Assembly: GCA_019931185.1 (NCBI GenBank)
Contig: JAINDK010000058.1
Span: 1 to 44,141 of the forward strand
From: Bryobacter sp. CoA8 C33
GTDB taxonomy: Bacteria; Acidobacteriota; Terriglobia; Bryobacterales; Bryobacteraceae
Direction of reading: 5' to 3'
DNA: 44,141 nt
A program made the translations under genes and the position numbers. Shown piece by piece: positions 3,315 to 11,310 of this stretch (positions are counted from its first letter, which is position 1; the number at the start of each line of letters is the position of its first letter). The notes under the pieces were generated by a model. It had not been told where the DNA came from. It did not search any database and worked only from the letters and a program-made list of their open reading frames with translations.

Positions 3315-3530
3315 ATGGCTGAGCAAGCAACAAATAAGAGTGAGAGCGCATTGAAAGCGGAGGAAATCTCGCTGGAAATGATGAAGTTTATCGCGGTGCA
3401 AACGGGCTATGGGAAGTCGAGCGGATCGACGGCGGGGTTTGGCGCCAAGGGGGCCAATACTCCGGAAGTTCATGCCGAGGCACTGCTTGAATTGTTTCAA
3501 CGGTGTCTCAAGGTGGTGAAGGCAGACTAA
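3315..3530 (+). CDS. Small conserved-looking protein of unknown function (71 aa)
   Basis: ATG 3315, stop 3530. I do not recognise a family. It has an N-terminal amphipathic helix (about residues 10-32, rich in K, E, M, L), a Gly/Ser/Ala linker (GYGKSSGSTAGFGAKGA) and a second predicted helix at the end (TPEVHAEALLELFQRCL). No signal peptide or membrane segment. No convincing ribosome site precedes the ATG, so it could be translated leaderless from the 27-base divergent gap. Its stop TAA is shared with the stop of the opposing basic-tail gene (CTAA at 3527-3530). Reality is supported by the neat fit between neighbours, not by homology. Confidence 0.6.
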   Translation: MAEQATNKSESALKAEEISLEMMKFIAVQTGYGKSSGSTAGFGAKGANTPEVHAEALLELFQRCLKVVKAD

Positions 3531-4021
3531 CGCTTCATTTTTGGCTTGGCGGCCTTCTTGGCCGCCTTGCTGGCGACCGCTTTCGGGGGAGCGGACTTTT
3601 TCGCAACTGACTGGTTGGCTACCGGCTTTATAGCGGTTTGTTTTCCGGGTGCCGGTTTTGAGACCGCGGACTTCTTCGTGAGCGGAGCTTGTTTCTTGGC
3701 AGGGGAGGCTTTCTTTGCCGGTGCGGGAGCTTTTGCTGGGGGTGCTTTCTCGACAGTCCGCGCCGGTTGGGACGATTGGACCTTCTTGCTTGCTTTGACT
3801 ATCTCGACGGCCGGTTCCACGATGGGTTCGACAACGGCGGGAGGGAGAGGAGAAGTGGAGAAAGCGAAGGAGGCGAGGGTGATTGCAGCGGCTTGATCGT
3901 CGCTGAAGTCATCGTCCTCATCGTCATAGCCATATGCGGACATTTCGTTTCCCAAGATGCCGTCCTGGATGGGATCATCGAGATCTTCATCGGGGGAAAC
4001 ATAGCGGATGCGATCGAGCAT
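3527..4021 (-). CDS. Low-complexity protein with acidic head and Lys/Ala/Pro-rich histone H1-like tail
   Basis: 164 residues from ATG 4021, chosen because GGAG lies 8 bases upstream; the frame is open further to 4330 but without support. Head (residues 1-50) is acidic, with YDDEDDDFSDDQ. From about residue 75 it is a Lys/Ala/Pro/Ser-rich tail with repeated 'KKxAPxKK'-like units ending in KAAKKAAKPKMKR. Such tails occur in bacterial H1-like nucleoid proteins and in DNA- or RNA-binding extensions; here the fold of the head is unknown, so DNA or RNA binding is inference. No Tat or Sec signal. It overlaps the convergent small gene by 4 bases and is divergent from the RidA gene (84 bases). Confidence 0.7.
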   Translation of the reverse strand: MLDRIRYVSPDEDLDDPIQDGILGNEMSAYGYDDEDDDFSDDQAAAITLASFAFSTSPLPPAVVEPIVEPAVEIVKASKKVQSSQPARTVEKAPPAKAPAPAKKASPAKKQAPLTKKSAVSKPAPGKQTAIKPVANQSVAKKSAPPKAVASKAAKKAAKPKMKR

Positions 4022-4105
4022 GAGAAGAACTCCGTGCACATAGCATATCGCGTGCGGAAGTGAGTGCAAGTGTAATCGCGGAAAAATTGTGAAAGACTGA
4101 CAGGC

Positions 4106-4561
4106 ATGACAAGAACACGTTTTTATCAGGCGGCCGCTGGGGTACTGGCGGGATGGTTGGCGACGGCGGCGACAGCTCTCGCGCAGGCAAGCGGAGGGGT
4201 GGAGAAAAGAGTGCACCGGCGGGGGCCGAAACCGGCGCGCACACCCTTGTTCAACGGAGCCGTGAGCTACGGCAACCTGCTGTTTATCGCGGGTAAGGGG
4301 GCGCACTATCCGGGCGACATCAAGGCGCATACAGAGACGGTGCTGAAGGAGATTGAAGCCGAATTGTTGGCCGCGGGCAGCAGCATGGACAAGGTGCTGA
4401 AGTGTAACGTTTACCTGGACAACCTCAAGGACTATGCGGCGATGAATTCAGTCTTTCAGGGCCGGTTTGGAGAAAACCCGCCGGTGCGCACGACGATCGC
4501 GGCAGCCGGCGGAATTCCGGGAAACAGTCTTGTGGAGATTGACGTGATCGCCTACATTTAG
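4106..4561 (+). CDS. Exported RidA (YjgF/YER057c/UK114) family protein
   Basis: 151 residues. Residues 1-27 form a signal peptide (hydrophobic AAAGVLAGWLATAATALAQA), so the mature protein should be periplasmic, unusual for RidA. The RidA domain follows: LLFIAGKGAH, then NVYLDNLKDYAAMN, then PPVRTTIAAAGGIPGNSLVEI with the substrate-carboxylate arginine (R128). Known: RidA proteins hydrolyse reactive enamine/imine intermediates released by PLP enzymes. Context fits, since the convergent neighbour is a Tat-exported PLP enzyme; the two genes share 4 bases at their stops (TTAG, 4558-4561). The ribosome site (ACAGG one base before ATG) is weak. Confidence 0.85.
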   Translation: MTRTRFYQAAAGVLAGWLATAATALAQASGGVEKRVHRRGPKPARTPLFNGAVSYGNLLFIAGKGAHYPGDIKAHTETVLKEIEAELLAAGSSMDKVLKCNVYLDNLKDYAAMNSVFQGRFGENPPVRTTIAAAGGIPGNSLVEIDVIAYI

Positions 4562-5745
4562 ACGGCGGCCTTGAAGATTTCGGAGAGGCGGCGGGCGACC
4601 AGTTCCGCCTCACCGGGCTTAAGCATCCAAACCGTCATGACGAGCTCTTCCTTGTTCGTGGATGGGGTGACTTCGATGGAGGGTTCGCCCTCGAGCATCT
4701 GTTTCTTGACATCGAGCGGGCTGAGCTTGATCTTCGATTGATCCCAGCGCAGTTTGAGGTGCGGGGTGTGATTGGCAATCTCGGGGACATCGATCGCGGA
4801 GGTGACCGAGGGGAATTTCTTGGCGGCCTTGGTGATGAGATCGACGCGGCGGTCCCATTCGCGGGCTTCGGCGGCGTGGTCGCGCTTGAGGTACTGTTCG
4901 AGGGCGACGAGCATGCCGAGCATCTCTTCCTTGTTTACCTTAAGGCCGCGGGCCACGGTGTCGGAATAGGGGCTGGTGTTGAGACGGGCGGCTTCGATGA
5001 GGTCCTTGCGGCCCATGAGAATGCCGGCGGACTGGGGACCGCAGAGCGCTTTGCCACCGGAGAAGGTGACGAGATCGAAGCCCATCTTGTTGTACATGCT
5101 GAGGCGCTCGACCGGAAGGCAGTCGGCGGAGGCGTCGTTGAAGGTGGGGACGTTGTGCTGTTTGCCGAGCTTGACCCAGCCCTTGTCGTCGATCTGTCCC
5201 TTTTTGTTGTTGTCGTTGAAGAAGAGGGCCATGGCTGTCCGCGGACCGGCGGCACGGTGGAAGTCCTCTTCGGTTTCAATCTCGACCATTTTGACGCCGA
5301 CGGCGCGAACGGCGTGATCGTAGCCATAGCGGTGAGACTTCTGAACGAGGACCTCGTTCTTGAGGCCCGTGAGGTCGGGAAGTTGGAGGATCGCCTTTTG
5401 ATCCTTGCCCGTGATGCAGCCGGCGGTGCCGACAGTCATCGCGCCGGCGGCGCCGGAGGAAACCATGGCGGACTCAGCCGAGAGCAGTTGGGCGATACGG
5501 GCGCCAACGGCGTCCTGGAGCTTGGTGAGGTGGACGAAGTGCTTGGAGGCATACTCGATGGCGTCCATCGTCTCCTGGCTCATCAGGGAAGCCGTAAGCA
5601 TGGTGTATGTGCCGGCGGCATTGATGAAGGGGCGGACGCCCAGGTCGCGGAAGTAGTCGGGAGTTTTGAGCTTAGTGGTTTTCGCGGCCGAGGCAGCGAA
5701 GGGGAGGGCAGCAGCGCTGCCCATGAACTTGCGGCGGGAAGACAT
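4558..5745 (-). CDS. Tat-exported SelA-like PLP-dependent lyase/aminotransferase
   Basis: 395 residues from ATG 5745, supported by AAAGGAG 11 bases upstream. The N-terminus SSRRKFMGSAAALPFAAS is a twin-arginine leader, consistent with export of a folded, cofactor-loaded enzyme. The rest is a fold-type I PLP enzyme of the selenocysteine synthase (SelA)/D-glucosaminate-6-phosphate ammonia-lyase-like group: RPFINAAGTYTML at the start, VSSGAAGAM for phosphate binding, FNDASADCLP as the cofactor aspartate region, and TFSGGKALCGPQSAG with Schiff-base lysine K232. It is not expected to act in selenocysteine synthesis (no selC or selB nearby, exported); an amino-acid or amino-sugar lyase is more likely, substrate unknown. 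It follows the CocE hydrolase gene by 16 bases on the same strand, so probably one operon. Confidence 0.82.
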   Translation of the reverse strand: MSSRRKFMGSAAALPFAASAAKTTKLKTPDYFRDLGVRPFINAAGTYTMLTASLMSQETMDAIEYASKHFVHLTKLQDAVGARIAQLLSAESAMVSSGAAGAMTVGTAGCITGKDQKAILQLPDLTGLKNEVLVQKSHRYGYDHAVRAVGVKMVEIETEEDFHRAAGPRTAMALFFNDNNKKGQIDDKGWVKLGKQHNVPTFNDASADCLPVERLSMYNKMGFDLVTFSGGKALCGPQSAGILMGRKDLIEAARLNTSPYSDTVARGLKVNKEEMLGMLVALEQYLKRDHAAEAREWDRRVDLITKAAKKFPSVTSAIDVPEIANHTPHLKLRWDQSKIKLSPLDVKKQMLEGEPSIEVTPSTNKEELVMTVWMLKPGEAELVARRLSEIFKAAV

Positions 5746-5761
5746 GATTGATGTTACTCCT

Positions 5762-7531
5762 TTAGGGGTTCGAGACGATAGGGAGGATGATATGGCTGGG
5801 ACGGGGTCCGCCATGGAAGATGGTTTGCAGGGCGATGCGCGTTTTGCTGGCGGAGCCGAGCGGCTCACCGGTGTTGGGGTTACGGTCGAACTGCGGGAAA
5901 TTGCTCGAGGTGATGTCGATGCGGATACGATGGCCGGGCAGGAAAGTATTGGCCGTGCCGGCCAGATCGACGGTGAACTCATAGGGGGTATTGGGGGTGA
6001 GCAGCTTCGGCTTGTCGAGGCCGTCGCGGAAGCGGGCGCGCAGGATGCCTTCCGCGACCGGGAAGCCGAAGCCATTGGGGTACACGTCGACGAGCTTGAC
6101 CATCCAATCGGTATCCGGACCGTCGGTGGAGGCGTGGAGCTTCATTTTGACCGGGCCGGCGATGGTGAGGGGTTCCTTGAGGAATTCGCTCGTGTAGACG
6201 AGGACGTCGTCGCGCTGTTCGATGGGGCGCTGGTCCTTGGGGCCGGCCAGCGTAGGAGTGCCACAGCAGTTGTTGCCGCCGAGGGTCATGACCGGCTGCT
6301 GGGGATCGTAACGGTATTGGTCCTTACTTTCGGAAGCCGCCTGGTCGAAGGTGAGCGTGCCACCGCCGCGCACGGAGTTGGCCGGAGATTTGGCGTGCAG
6401 GTATAGGTTGCGGAAGTTTGTATTCGGGATGGGCCAGTCGGCTTCGGTGCGCCATTTGTTGATTCCCATGTAGAAAATTTTGACCGGCAGGTTGTTGTCG
6501 AGACCGTTCTTGATGCCTTTCAGGTGGAAGTCAAAGAAGCGGAGTTCTTCCTCGAACTGATCGTTGTAGGCGTCGGGGCCGAAGTCAACATCGCCGTACT
6601 TGCGCGTGGGACCGTGGCCCCAGGGGCCGATGATCATGCGGGTGTGCTTGCGGGCATGCTCGGTGGCCGCCTTTTGCTTCATCATCGTGTAGCCGTTGAT
6701 GGTACCGGCCAGGAAGATATCGAACCAGCCGCCGGAAACCTCGGCGGGGACTTTCATCTTGTCCATGCGCTCTTCGTCGGAGATGGTCTTCCAGTAATCG
6801 TCATAGGAATCGTGGGCGAGCCAGTCGCGATAATGCTTGACGGCGTAGCTGGCGCTCTTGAGGTCGCCGGAATTAAGAGGGAGATGCCAGAGGATGTTTT
6901 CGTATTTGAGCTCTTCCGGGGTATAGGGTTCCGTGTGCCAGTACTGGGGCAGCATGATGCGGTTGGGCATGCGGACGACGCCCCAGCCAAAGTTAAAGCT
7001 GAGCCGGAAAGCGCCGCCGTGCGTGATCCAATTCGCATAAATGTTGGTTGAGGCGAGAGAAGGGAAAATGGCTACGAGGCTGGGGGGCTGCTGGCTGGCG
7101 GCGGCCCACTGCACGTGGCCGAGGTAGGAGCCGCCCTGGGTGGCGACTTTGCCATTGGAGAAATCCTGTTTGGCGGCCCATTCAATGGTGTCGTAGCCAT
7201 CCTTGGCTTCGAAGCGGAAGGGATCCCAGTCGCCGCTTGATTCATAGCGTCCGCGATTGTCCATGAAAACGACGGAATAGCCGCGTTGGGCGAACTTGAT
7301 CATGGTCTCGTGCCCGCCATCGCGTTGAACGCCGTAGGGAGTGCGGACGATGATGGTCGGATACTTGCCGGGGGCAGCTGGGCGATAGACATCGGCATAA
7401 AGTGTTACCCCATCGCGCATGGGTACGGCTTTGTGGCGTTCAATTCGAATTTCGTTGAGATAAGGTTTGCCGCCAGGCTCGGCAGCGAAGGCGAGCACGG
7501 CAAAGAGAGCGAAAGTAGATAGAGCTTTCAT
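5762..7531 (-). CDS. Secreted CocE/NonD-family (X-Pro dipeptidyl-peptidase S15-type) hydrolase
   Basis: 589 residues from ATG 7531, chosen because it gives a signal peptide (MKALSTFALFAVLAFAAEPG); an in-frame GTG at 7564 lies further up but would nearly touch the divergent start. Alpha/beta-hydrolase domain: PMRDGVTLYADVYRP, MDNRGRYESSG, nucleophile serine S135 in QGGSYLGH, and a later IIGPWGHGP carrying the catalytic His. The C-terminal 200 residues (LPGHRIRIDITSSNFPQFDR) match the jelly-roll domain of this family. Members cleave N-terminal X-Pro dipeptides, acyl-amino-acid amides or esters such as cocaine; the substrate here is open. Probably cotranscribed with the exported PLP enzyme just downstream. 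Confidence 0.88.
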   Translation of the reverse strand: MKALSTFALFAVLAFAAEPGGKPYLNEIRIERHKAVPMRDGVTLYADVYRPAAPGKYPTIIVRTPYGVQRDGGHETMIKFAQRGYSVVFMDNRGRYESSGDWDPFRFEAKDGYDTIEWAAKQDFSNGKVATQGGSYLGHVQWAAASQQPPSLVAIFPSLASTNIYANWITHGGAFRLSFNFGWGVVRMPNRIMLPQYWHTEPYTPEELKYENILWHLPLNSGDLKSASYAVKHYRDWLAHDSYDDYWKTISDEERMDKMKVPAEVSGGWFDIFLAGTINGYTMMKQKAATEHARKHTRMIIGPWGHGPTRKYGDVDFGPDAYNDQFEEELRFFDFHLKGIKNGLDNNLPVKIFYMGINKWRTEADWPIPNTNFRNLYLHAKSPANSVRGGGTLTFDQAASESKDQYRYDPQQPVMTLGGNNCCGTPTLAGPKDQRPIEQRDDVLVYTSEFLKEPLTIAGPVKMKLHASTDGPDTDWMVKLVDVYPNGFGFPVAEGILRARFRDGLDKPKLLTPNTPYEFTVDLAGTANTFLPGHRIRIDITSSNFPQFDRNPNTGEPLGSASKTRIALQTIFHGGPRPSHIILPIVSNP

Positions 7532-7565: not shown

Positions 7566-9914
7566 ATGGTGCTGCTATTTTTGCTGATTGCCGCGGAGAC
7601 GGAACTGGCGGAGAAGGCCCTAGGAATTCTGAACCGGAATTGCTACAGCTGTCACGGTAGCGCGGCGATGGCCGGGTTGCGTCTGGACCGGCCGGAGGGT
7701 CTGGAGGACGCCATTGTGGTGCCGGGCAAGCCCGATCAAAGCCGGTTGTGGCTGATGATGAACGGGAAGGGGCGGGCGATGATGCCTCCGACGGGAAAGT
7801 TGGCGCCGGGGGATCTGGCGGCGGTGCGGGAGTGGATCAAAGCGGGGGCGAAGTGGCCGGTCGCCTCCGGCAAGGCGCCACTGGCGAAGTGGTGGGCGTT
7901 TGAGCCGGTAAAGAGTTTTTCAGCGCCCGGCAGGGGAGAAGGTTGGGCCCGCAATGAGGTGGACCGGTTTATCGCGGCCAAGCTGGAGGAGAAGGGCTTG
8001 AAACCGGCTCGCGAGGCGGACCGGCGGACGCTGGTGCGGCGGGTGAGCTTCGATTTGACGGGGCTGCCGCCGGCGCGGGCTGAGGTAGAGGAATTTGAGC
8101 GGGACGAAAAGCCGGGGGCCTATGAACGCATGGTGGAGCGGTACCTAAGCTCGAAACATTATGGGGAAAAGTGGGGCAAGCATTGGCTGGATCTGGTGCG
8201 TTACGGAGATACAGCGGGGTTTGAACAGGATCCGTACACGTTGTATGCGTGGCGGTACCGCGATTATGTAATCGAGAGTTTTAATGCGGACAAGCCGTAC
8301 AACGTTTTCGTCAAGGAGCAGTTGGCGGGCGATGAATTGTTTGAAGACCCGCAGCAACAGCAGGGGACGGGATACTTCGCCGTGGGGCCGAACCGGGACA
8401 TGCTGTACAAGGTGGAAGACATCAACCGGATAGAGAGCCTGACGGACTTTACGGATACGACAGCGAGCGTTTTTCTGGGCCTGACGGTGGGATGCGCGCG
8501 CTGTCATGATCACAAATACGATCCAATCCCGCAGCGGGACTATTACCGGCTTCAGGCTGTCTTTGCGCCGTTTCAGAAGACGCGCATCTTTCTGCACTAT
8601 AACAACGCGCGAAGCCATGACCTCGGCGAGGTGACCCGGCAATTCAAGCAATATGACATTGGCGCGGAACTGATCCGGCTCAAGACTCCTTACTTTGAGC
8701 GCATGAAGGCGGAGCGGCTGTCGCGGCTGAGTGCGGCGGTACAAGAGGCGTTCGCGGCGCCGGAAGAGAAACGGACAGCGGAACAAAAGGCGCTGCACGA
8801 TGCGCACATGAAGGAAGTAAACCCGACAGATGGAGAGATCTGGAAGGTACTCGATGACCGGGACCGGGACAAGCTGGAAGCGCTGAAGAACCGGCTCTTG
8901 GGAATGTATGCCAACTATGGGCCTGGGCCTTTTGCCCCGGGGGTGACGGATGTGGGGCGGGAGGCGCCACGAACCTATGTGCCGGGAAAGGGGACGGCCT
9001 ATGGGGAGGAGGTGAAGCCCGGCTTTCTGACGGCGCTCGGCGGTGGTGAGATTGCTGAGCCGCCGCTTGATTCCGCGACGACGCGGCGCCGGGCAGCATT
9101 GGCCGAATGGATTGCGCGGGGGGAAAATCCCCTGACGGCGCGGGTGATGGTGAACCGCATCTGGCAATATCACTTTGGCCGGGGCATTGTGGCGACGGCA
9201 AGTGATTTTGGCATGCGGGGCAGTGAGCCGACACATCCGGAGTTGCTGGATTGGCTGGCGGGTGAATTTGTGAAGCGGGGTTGGAGTGTCAAGGCGATGC
9301 ACCGCCTGATGCTGCATTCGGCTACTTACCGGCAGGCCTCAAATCGTGGGGATGGCCCAAACGAGTATCTTTCGGGGTTTAACCGCCGGAGGCTCGAGGC
9401 CGAAGAGGTCCGCGATGCGATGTTGCAGGTGGCGGGCACGATGAACCCGAAGATGGGAGGCAAACCCGTGGTTCCTGAATTGTCGAATGAGGAATTATAC
9501 GGAATGAGCCAACCGGCGGGAAATGCCTGGCCGGTAACAATGGACCGCGCCGAGCATGCGCGGCGCAGTATTTACATGCTTGCCAAGCGGACTTACCGTA
9601 TGCCGATGCTCGAGGTGCTGGACCGGCCGGAAGGGGTGCTGAGCTGCGCGCGGCGGGAGAGTTCGACGACGGCGACGCAGAGCCTGGGTTTGTTGAACAG
9701 CAAGTTTACGGTGGAGCAGGCGGAAGCGTTGGGGAAGCTCGCGCCGGAACGAGGCTGGCAGAGCGTGTTTCAACGGGAGATGACCGGGGAAGAAGCGGTG
9801 ATGGTGAAGGAATTCCTGGCGCGGCAGACCGAGCTGTTGGGAAGCGAGCAGAAGGCCCGGCGGGAGTTGATGCGGGGATTGCTCAACACAAATGAGTTCC
9901 TATATGTCGACTAG
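7566..9914 (+). CDS. c-type cytochrome DUF1549/DUF1553 (PSD1-type) protein, module 1
   Basis: 782 residues with a short signal peptide (MVLLFLLIAA). Domains in order: PSCyt1-type cytochrome region with heme motif CYSCH at about residues 21-25 and a possible distal Met in MMPPTGK; DUF1549 (about 130-340) with a second CxxCH in GCARCHDHKYDP; DUF1553 (about 500-760) with RVMVNRIWQYHFGRGIV. Known: these periplasmic proteins are abundant in Planctomycetes and some Acidobacteria, are nearly always followed by a DUF1501 gene, and have no established reaction. The DUF1501 gene follows after 16 bases. The start is 34 bases from the divergent hydrolase; TATAGA at 7549-7554 could be a -10 box, but no good -35 is seen. 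Confidence 0.9.
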   Translation: MVLLFLLIAAETELAEKALGILNRNCYSCHGSAAMAGLRLDRPEGLEDAIVVPGKPDQSRLWLMMNGKGRAMMPPTGKLAPGDLAAVREWIKAGAKWPVASGKAPLAKWWAFEPVKSFSAPGRGEGWARNEVDRFIAAKLEEKGLKPAREADRRTLVRRVSFDLTGLPPARAEVEEFERDEKPGAYERMVERYLSSKHYGEKWGKHWLDLVRYGDTAGFEQDPYTLYAWRYRDYVIESFNADKPYNVFVKEQLAGDELFEDPQQQQGTGYFAVGPNRDMLYKVEDINRIESLTDFTDTTASVFLGLTVGCARCHDHKYDPIPQRDYYRLQAVFAPFQKTRIFLHYNNARSHDLGEVTRQFKQYDIGAELIRLKTPYFERMKAERLSRLSAAVQEAFAAPEEKRTAEQKALHDAHMKEVNPTDGEIWKVLDDRDRDKLEALKNRLLGMYANYGPGPFAPGVTDVGREAPRTYVPGKGTAYGEEVKPGFLTALGGGEIAEPPLDSATTRRRAALAEWIARGENPLTARVMVNRIWQYHFGRGIVATASDFGMRGSEPTHPELLDWLAGEFVKRGWSVKAMHRLMLHSATYRQASNRGDGPNEYLSGFNRRRLEAEEVRDAMLQVAGTMNPKMGGKPVVPELSNEELYGMSQPAGNAWPVTMDRAEHARRSIYMLAKRTYRMPMLEVLDRPEGVLSCARRESSTTATQSLGLLNSKFTVEQAEALGKLAPERGWQSVFQREMTGEEAVMVKEFLARQTELLGSEQKARRELMRGLLNTNEFLYVD

Positions 9915-9930
9915 GGAGGAGATCAGAGCG

Positions 9931-11310
9931 ATGAGCGCGACGCGACGACAGTTCTTTCTCGATGCTGGCAAGGGTTTCGGCTCGCTGGCCTTGGCCAGCA
10001 TGGTAGCGGGCGCGGCCGAGCAGGCGCGGGCCAAGCGGGTGATCTATTTGTTCATGCATGGCGGGGTGAGCCACGTGGATACGTTCGACCCGAAGCCGGA
10101 GTTGACGAAACGAAGCGGGGAAGTGTTGCCGGGTAGTTTCGGGCAGGGCTTGATTACGAGCCGGATTGACTTTCGCAAGGCGCTGATGCGGGGCAGCCCA
10201 TGGAAGTTTGAGCGGGCTGGCGAAGGGGGCCTGGAGATCAGTGATCTGTTTTCGCATATCAGAAAGCAAGCCGACAAAATTGCCGTGATCCGGAGTTGCC
10301 ATGGGGACGCATTTGACCATGCGCCGGCGATTTACTTGCGAACGAGCGGCAGTCAGTTTCCGGGACGTCCGTCGCTGGGGGCCTGGAGTGTGTATGGGCT
10401 GGGGAGCGAGAATGAAAATCTGCCGAGTTTTGTTGTGATGAGCGACGGAGCGATGAAGAGCGGGGCGGGCGCCTATGGCAGTGGATACTTGCCGGCGCGC
10501 TATCAAGGGACGGTCTTTCGCAGCGGAGCAAGCCCGGTGTTGCACCTGGAGGCGCCGGAGGGAGTGTCGCGGGAGGCACAAAAGACAACACTCGAGCTGA
10601 TTGGCAAGATGAACCGGGGCTATGGTGCGAACCGGGAGGGAGATTCGACGCTGGAGGCGCGGATGGCGAGCTACGAGCTGGCCTACCGGATGCAGGCCGA
10701 GGCGCCGGAGGTAGTGGATCTCGCAAAAGAGTCGGCGGCGACCAAGAAGCTATACGGGATTGGGGAGCCGATGACGGATGACTTCGGCCGGAAGTGTCTG
10801 CTGGCGCGGCGGTTGGTGGAGCGCGGCGTGCGATTTGTGCAACTGTATAGCGGCACGAATTTGGGGGACGACTGGGACGACGCGCATAACGATTTGTTGG
10901 GGAGCCACAACAAGATGGCGAAAAAGAGCGACTTGCCGGTGGCGGGACTGCTGGCGGATCTGGCGGGAAGGGGATTGCTCGACAGCACGCTGGTGGTGTG
11001 GGGCAGCGAGTTTGGACGGACGCCGTTGGCCGAGGGCAAGAACGGGCGGGATCATCATCCGTATGGGTTTTCGATGTGGATGGCGGGGGCGGGCATTGTG
11101 GGTGGCCGGGCGCTGGGGGCCACCGACGAGTTTGGGCTGCGGGCCGTCGAAGACAAAAAGGACGTGCATGATCTACACGCGACGATGTTCCGGCTGCTCG
11201 GCATGGACCATACGGAGGTGACATATCGTTTTCAGGGGCGGGATATGCGGTTGACGGATGTGCACGGGCAGGGCGAATTCACGGCCTGGCTGAGAGGCGG
11301 AAGTAAGTAG
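9931..11310 (+). CDS. Tat-exported DUF1501 protein, module 1
   Basis: 459 residues from ATG 9931; the start is fixed by GGAGGA at about 9915-9920, 10 bases upstream. Twin-arginine leader (SATRRQFFLDAG). DUF1501 is an alkaline-phosphatase/sulfatase-superfamily fold; the metal-site-like motifs are visible: FMHGGVSHVDTFDPKP, VVWGSEFGRTP, and GRDHHPYGFSMWMAGAG. No sulfatase formylglycine motif is present. Partner of the cytochrome protein just upstream, same operon; the pair is presumed to act together in the periplasm, function unknown. The 3' end overlaps the convergent membrane-protein gene by 32 bases, the longest convergent overlap in the window. Confidence 0.92.
   Translation: MSATRRQFFLDAGKGFGSLALASMVAGAAEQARAKRVIYLFMHGGVSHVDTFDPKPELTKRSGEVLPGSFGQGLITSRIDFRKALMRGSPWKFERAGEGGLEISDLFSHIRKQADKIAVIRSCHGDAFDHAPAIYLRTSGSQFPGRPSLGAWSVYGLGSENENLPSFVVMSDGAMKSGAGAYGSGYLPARYQGTVFRSGASPVLHLEAPEGVSREAQKTTLELIGKMNRGYGANREGDSTLEARMASYELAYRMQAEAPEVVDLAKESAATKKLYGIGEPMTDDFGRKCLLARRLVERGVRFVQLYSGTNLGDDWDDAHNDLLGSHNKMAKKSDLPVAGLLADLAGRGLLDSTLVVWGSEFGRTPLAEGKNGRDHHPYGFSMWMAGAGIVGGRALGATDEFGLRAVEDKKDVHDLHATMFRLLGMDHTEVTYRFQGRDMRLTDVHGQGEFTAWLRGGSK

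Follow-up and report, generated by a model that had tools for sequence, protein, structure and literature searches.

A predicted exported SelA-like pyridoxal phosphate enzyme linked to leader-bearing RidA in Bryobacter and Bacteroidota

The window analysed here is a stretch of 44,141 nucleotides, contig JAINDK010000058.1 of Bryobacter sp. CoA8 C33 (Acidobacteriota). Between positions 4106 and 7531 it encodes a RidA protein, a SelA-like enzyme dependent on pyridoxal 5'-phosphate (PLP) and a CocE-type hydrolase. Because leader-bearing genes for RidA and the SelA-like protein co-occur and are linked, the pair is best read as an extracytoplasmic lyase with enamine clearance. On balance, it is probable that the SelA-like protein acts outside the cytoplasm as an ammonia-lyase on an unphosphorylated 2-amino acid, of which a 2-amino-aldonate is the likeliest, and that RidA clears the enamine/imine. 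Direct results of the computation are the protein families, the active-site lysine, the leaders, the linkage, the co-occurrence and the tree groups.

The locus comprises the following features:
4106..4561, plus strand: Rid-family protein (RidA-like), 151 aa, with an N-terminal leader (PF01042, 69 bits, cut-off 27.3)
4106..4183, plus strand: RidA leader, MTRTRFYQAAAGVLAGWLATAATALA, judged by eye to be of the Sec type; most orthologues have a twin-arginine leader instead
4558..5745, minus strand: SelA/DgaE-like PLP enzyme, presumably of fold type I, 395 aa, with a leader of the twin-arginine translocation (Tat) type (SRRKF; PF03841, 43.3 bits, cut-off 22.8)
5050..5052, minus strand: codon of Lys232, the predicted PLP Schiff-base lysine, aligned with lysine 213 of chain 7lc0
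5762..7531, minus strand: CocE/NonD (S15) hydrolase, 589 aa, with a Sec-type leader, MKALSTFALFAVLAFAA (TIGR00976, 480.1 bits, cut-off 66.3)

Profile matches and leaders thus confirm the preliminary description of this locus, which had named the three proteins, Lys232 and an export-type leader on each. The RidA and SelA-like genes are convergent and overlap by 4 bp; owing to this opposite orientation, RidA lies outside the operon of the SelA-like gene. CocE is followed on the same strand, after a gap of 16 bp, by the SelA-like gene, whose ATG is preceded by AAAGGAG, and these two look like a single operon. The window's genome comprises 5.05 Mb in 138 contigs, and among named relatives the closest one found is a Bryobacter metagenome-assembled genome with a lyase identity of 86%.

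The SelA-like leader (MSSRRKFMG...) contains a twin-arginine motif. Using a regular expression of our own and a hydrophobicity threshold, strict twin-arginine leaders were detected in 92 of 95 distinct SelA-like lyases and in 58 of 67 distinct exported-type RidAs. The controls yielded none among 18 weaker Rid matches and one among 13 cytosolic-type lyases, a false positive of the expression inside the domain. Of the nine RidAs that fail this test, seven are the window protein and its closest kin, which carry MTRxRFYQ (in one case MTRTGFYQ) in place of the twin-arginine motif. To judge by these sequences, the window's close kin have lost the twin arginine in RidA only, and their RidAs are probably exported via Sec. 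The leaders of all three proteins evolve as translated sequence: The ratio of nonsynonymous to synonymous differences (pN/pS) in the leader is 0.25 for RidA (7 orthologues), 0.43 for the SelA-like protein (6) and 0.53 for CocE (4), while the remainder of each protein is tighter (0.13, 0.18 and 0.13, respectively). An alternative RidA start at the GTG codon 32 was rejected, since only two of seven close orthologues have Val at this position and the leader evolves like coding sequence. TatC is present in all six genomes searched, the window's included. Export of lyase, RidA and CocE is a prediction from their leaders.

The preliminary description had called for a survey of signal-bearing RidA with Tat-bearing SelA-like genes, and both co-occurrence and linkage extend far beyond the window, to Bacteroidota and to other genomes of the window's order. 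The two genome samples each contain their own centre (the window's genome, G000, and G150), and the Bacteroidota sample represents the phylum of Pricia antarctica. Among 198 Bacteroidota genomes, the lyase (E up to 1e-40) was found in four and the exported RidA (E up to 1e-20) in the identical four (Fisher test, 1.6e-8), with the nearest lyase-RidA pair less than 2 kb apart in every one. Omission of the sampling centre G150 leaves 3 of 197 genomes (~8e-7, calculated by hand). The sample of the window's order comprised 150 genomes, searched at E 1e-40 for the lyase and 1e-25 for RidA with best-E exponents rounded: 96 contain both genes, 17 only the lyase, 2 only RidA and 35 neither (Fisher test, 5.7e-19). 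Within 8 kb of 83 distinct lyase loci, exported-type RidA was found in 39, amidohydrolase/deacetylase in 22, DUF362 in 11, CocE in 10, and glucuronate isomerase and RraA in 8 each. These loci include up to ten (L164-L173) chosen as genomes without exported RidA and L174-L176 chosen as having both, and for many of L003-L031 the flank is only ~1.5 kb. Where at least 10 kb of flank is available, exported-type RidA lies within 8 kb in 28 of 54 loci. A chance neighbourhood of lyase and RidA was rejected on the basis of the linkage counts and Fisher tests.

In the lyase tree, which lacks four of the requested rows, a branch with a support of 100/99 separates 44 exported lyases from 13 cytosolic rows. 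The RidA tree has a single group of exported RidAs, made up of 29 rows (support 98/96). On this tree, the label 'exportedTat' requires two changes; two L176 rows fell below the identity cut for this label and are labelled 'other', and both bear leaders, one Tat-type and one near-Tat. RidAs linked to alphaproteobacterial lyases belong to a different Rid subfamily. The same holds for a second YjgF protein with a Sec leader in three Bacteroidota loci, which is placed outside the exported-RidA group in another subfamily. Several kinds of Rid protein thus appear to have become partners of the lyase superfamily, an argument for a functional link. A second SelA-like paralogue with a twin-arginine leader is encoded in the window's genome (G000:C134:64706-65866; loci L002 and L090) and is placed in a different subgroup, alongside Granulicella and Bacteroidota members.

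The SelA-like protein scores below the cut-offs of both DgaE models (TIGR01437, 161.5 bits, cut-off 385.3; NF047797, 145.9 bits, cut-off 600) and of the selenocysteine synthase model TIGR00474 (43.3 bits, cut-off 267.9), while the broader Pfam SelA model is passed. Its AlphaFold model, based on an alignment of 51 sequences, has a mean predicted local distance difference test score (pLDDT) of 92.2, and all segments with pLDDT below 50 fall into residues 1-21. The best-matching solved structures are DGL (7lc0, TM-score TMq 0.82), Cap15 (8t7j, 0.81) and SelA (~0.6); the sequence ranking is likewise headed by DGL (113.1 bits) with Cap15 second (107.4 bits). From the matches to DGL and SelA, we take the enzyme to be of fold type I. 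The position of Lys232 is occupied by Lys in 97 of 97 distinct homologues. According to the available part of PMC9529869, His163 of DGL is the proton donor, Arg226 contacts the carboxylate and Arg301, Arg332 and Arg346 bind the phosphate. Arg226 corresponds to R246 in the window enzyme (Arg in 73 and Lys in 14 of the 97 relatives). The three phosphate-binding arginines are replaced by H329, T360 and W373, and among the relatives Arg is found once in the Arg301 column, 17 times in the Arg332 column and never in the Arg346 column. The pair His162-His163 is represented by N179-N180. An alignment of 101 exported-lyase rows, loci fetched twice included, contains no His in the His163 column and two in the His162 column; at least one lyase of a wider set (L176) has His163. 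The lost phosphate arginines and His pair, together with the predicted extracytoplasmic place, would be consistent with an unphosphorylated substrate.

The window RidA has kept R128 and E144, which we take to be its catalytic residues and which are each invariant in 69 of 69 aligned exported-type RidAs. Its score does not reach the cut-off of TIGR00004, the RidA subfamily model (66.2 bits, cut-off 106.25), and compared to PH0854 its SGQ-type loop is shorter and a Tyr is replaced by Phe. The window's genome encodes one close exported-type RidA; the remaining Rid matches are 28-38% identical. In an alignment with cocaine esterase 1ju3, the hydrolase motifs GGSYLG, GWFDI and GPWGHG fall on the Ser, Asp and His regions, which presumably hold the catalytic triad; PDB relatives of the hydrolase include alpha-amino acid ester hydrolases. 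CocE adjoins the co-oriented SelA-like gene in six close loci (L032-L034, L003-L005), five of them distinct because L003 and L033 are the same contig, and is divergent from the lyase gene in L035 and L007. As a general core partner of the lyase, CocE was rejected; we regard it as an addition in the window's genus and a few relatives. The preliminary description had combined hydrolase, exported lyase and exported RidA in one breakdown route outside the cytoplasm. Joint conservation of the neighbours was checked, and it holds for lyase and RidA but does not for CocE. We retain the exported lyase with enamine clearance by RidA as the best reading, and give up S15/CocE as a general partner (10 of 83 loci vs 39 for RidA). 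Divergent from CocE, a PSCyt1-DUF1549-DUF1553 gene and then a DUF1501 gene occupy positions 7566-11310 of the window, an arrangement beside CocE that recurs in L032-L034. The Lys/Ala/Pro-rich protein encoded at 3530-4081 (minus strand) has no match to Pfam or NCBIfam.

A gene-by-gene reading covered nine Bacteroidota loci (L061-L064, L066, L068, L174-L176). All nine contain an amidohydrolase/deacetylase with a hydrophobic leader, one to three lyases, each with a twin-arginine leader except one in L068, and one or two RidAs whose leaders are of the Tat or near-Tat type. A dehydrogenase of the glucose/sorbosone type (GSDH) with cytochrome c, an RraA aldolase and a lactonase/SGL-type protein are present in six loci each and a Na+ symporter of the SBF family in five. 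The leaders of the GSDH-cytochrome c proteins often end with Cys, as judged by eye, and some clusters carry SusC/SusD and CBM9 genes; genes of these clusters are presumably of the PQQ and COG3964 types. The commoner hydrolase partner is an exported amidohydrolase/deacetylase and not CocE. The Bacteroidota neighbours make an amino-sugar acid a more likely substrate than the plain amino acid that had been proposed initially. In Granulicella, the gene row reads RraA, lyase, RidA, second lyase, deacetylase, lactonase and a BBE-type oxidase dependent on flavin adenine dinucleotide (FAD). The window's genome encodes exported amidohydrolases/deacetylases on contigs C86 and C100, unlinked to the lyase, and contains GSDH-like and RraA-type genes.

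Seven alphaproteobacterial loci combine an ATP-binding cassette (ABC) importer, presumably of the oligopeptide type, with RidA and a related lyase, and in five of them an amidohydrolase/deacetylase is annotated. In contrast to the exported systems, no leaders were seen on the lyases and RidAs of these seven loci, the lyases have the His-His pair and RidA is of another Rid subfamily; the importer suggests cytoplasmic use. The DgaE loci of Bartonella and Lacticaseibacillus contain a 2-keto-3-deoxy-6-phosphogluconate (KDGP) aldolase and phosphotransferase system (PTS)-type genes and have kept His163, with no RidA in the 11.9 and 15.1 kb fetched. Similarly, the haloarchaeal, Mesorhizobium and two Sinorhizobium relatives that were read have no adjoining RidA. 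From plasmid records, 9 regions of 296 matched and 6 of 230 matched were examined.

Some further neighbourhoods were noted. Many loci of Acidobacteriota (L057, L077, L081, L092-L095) have a DUF362 protein next to RidA or the lyase; in those read, this protein bears a Tat-type leader. In the genera g10 and g11 (L073, L074, L076, L078, L079, L084), the lyase is found with a glucuronate isomerase, a PIG-L deacetylase and a protein of ~484 aa without Pfam match. On two Sinorhizobium plasmids (L114, L119), SelA-like genes are located in phosphoenolpyruvate mutase clusters, as in phosphonate metabolism. The lyases of genus g54 bear twin-arginine leaders, and no exported RidA was found in the g54 genomes searched; in the g54 locus L164, the lyase is flanked by a 3-keto-disaccharide hydrolase and a DctP-type binding protein.

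Localisation, substrate, reaction and the action of RidA on the lyase product are what we infer in the following scheme. The SelA-like protein would leave the cytoplasm folded, probably with PLP bound, through the Tat system, and RidA would be exported alongside, probably via Sec in the window's organism and via Tat in most relatives. The free amino acid for the lyase would usually be supplied by an exported amidohydrolase/deacetylase. The substrate would most likely be a 2-amino-2-deoxy-aldonate, e.g. D-glucosaminate, derived from oxidised and deacetylated N-acetyl amino sugars. The periplasmic lyase would act on a free 2-amino acid that carries a 3-hydroxyl and eliminate across C2-C3, yielding an enamine/imine, which RidA would hydrolyse to a 2-keto-3-deoxy acid and ammonia. 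More tentatively, an entire non-phosphorylative amino-sugar route might be located outside the cytoplasm in Bacteroidota and Acidobacteriota. It would comprise C1 oxidation, lactone opening, deacetylation, PLP-dependent ammonia elimination, hydrolysis by RidA and aldol cleavage, and only keto acids would be imported.

This scheme resembles known systems in part. With DGL/DgaE (TIGR01437/NF047797), the window enzyme shares the fold type I architecture (TMq 0.82), the PLP lysine and, in most relatives, the carboxylate Arg. In contrast to DGL/DgaE, it has a Tat leader and a RidA neighbour and lacks His162-His163 and the phosphate-binding Arg301 and Arg346. The ong cluster of Pseudoalteromonas prydzensis also combines a deacetylase (OngB), a PLP lyase (OngC) and a RidA (OngD) that together convert an unphosphorylated amino-sugar acid to 2-keto-3-deoxygluconate (KDG). 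According to the part of PMC9537276 available, this pathway leads from N-acetylglucosaminate (GlcNAc1A) to KDG in the cytoplasm, and OngD is essential with an unknown role. In the same source, OngC is described as a fold type III enzyme, unlike the window enzyme, and OngB and OngC are predicted to be cytoplasmic. An extracytoplasmic Rid protein has precedents, as RidA-type proteins have been described beside exported imine-forming oxidases, the periplasmic L-amino acid oxidase (LAAO) of Chlamydomonas and the lao-cccA-ridA genes of Gluconacetobacter (PMC5053998, in part). These are, however, FAD oxidases and not PLP enzymes. PvdN of Pseudomonas, which acts in pyoverdine maturation, is a PLP enzyme exported by Tat; we know of no RidA partner of it. 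The matches listed from the open-licence PMC literature include no description of a RidA exported by Tat together with a SelA-like enzyme. To judge by these matches, the new element is the combination of RidA with an exported PLP lyase, a variant of the DgaE/ong theme.

Several observations weigh against the proposed extracytoplasmic lyase with RidA. In the window's order, 17 of 113 lyase-bearing genomes lack an exported RidA, 11 of them in genus g54, and six of six fetched g54 loci (L164-L167, L172, L173) have none of the sought partners within 8 kb. No deacetylase, lactonase or dehydrogenase is linked to the lyase within the window, and for this reason the substrate is argued from relatives. 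The export routes of lyase and RidA may differ because the window RidA lacks the twin arginine. A simple explanation for RidA, the loss of His163, was rejected: All seven alphaproteobacterial lyases have kept His-His, yet RidA lies within ~1 kb, which breaks the rule. Loss of His may still explain enamine release in the exported group; the His163Ala form of DGL releases enamine (PMC9529869, in part). Cap15 is almost as good a match as DGL in fold and sequence score. The SelA-like protein could thus be an enzyme dependent on O2 and PLP like Cap15, with RidA clearing the imine formed by oxidation, which we regard as improbable since deacetylase and RraA neighbours and the ong/dga parallels favour a lyase. 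A need for O2 would not show in the sequence.

The same exported pair might instead use an ordinary D-amino acid, such as D-serine or D-threonine from peptidoglycan or peptides. The ABC importers adjoining the alphaproteobacterial relatives, presumably of the oligopeptide type, and the alpha-amino acid ester hydrolases among the PDB relatives of CocE would fit such a substrate, and OngC, a functional analogue, deaminates D-serine and D-threonine too (PMC9537276, in part). This substrate nevertheless appears unlikely in view of the GSDH-type sugar dehydrogenase, lactonase, CBM9 and SusC/SusD genes of the Bacteroidota clusters, the glucuronate isomerase in 8 of 83 loci and the substrate of the closest characterised lyase, glucosaminate-6-phosphate. 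Somewhat less doubtful is an integral role of CocE within the window's genus, where it might free the amino acid from an ester or amide: The short co-oriented gap here and the adjoining, co-oriented arrangement in five distinct close loci argue for it, its rarity among the lyase loci and its divergent orientation in L035 and L007 against it. That the leaders are vestigial and the proteins cytoplasmic is very improbable. Such a view could draw on R-x-R in place of the twin arginine in the window RidA and on the weaker constraint on the leaders than on the protein remainder. However, leaders are kept as a class across Acidobacteriota and Bacteroidota and evolve as translated sequence, cytosolic-type relatives have none, and TatC was found in every genome searched.

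RidA has mainly been viewed as protecting PLP enzymes in the cytoplasm or in organelles. The pairing of a conserved, mostly Tat-exported RidA lineage with a PLP enzyme also exported by Tat recurs in two phyla. It suggests that clearance of enamines is of importance beyond the cytoplasm as well, or else that RidA serves there as a pathway enzyme in its own right. This has a bearing on the question why growth on an oxidised chitin sugar requires the RidA protein OngD (PMC9537276, in part). For the use of oxidised amino sugars by soil and marine bacteria, the pair represents a candidate route. If true, the full extracytoplasmic route would place both PLP chemistry and the defence against reactive enamines in the periplasm.

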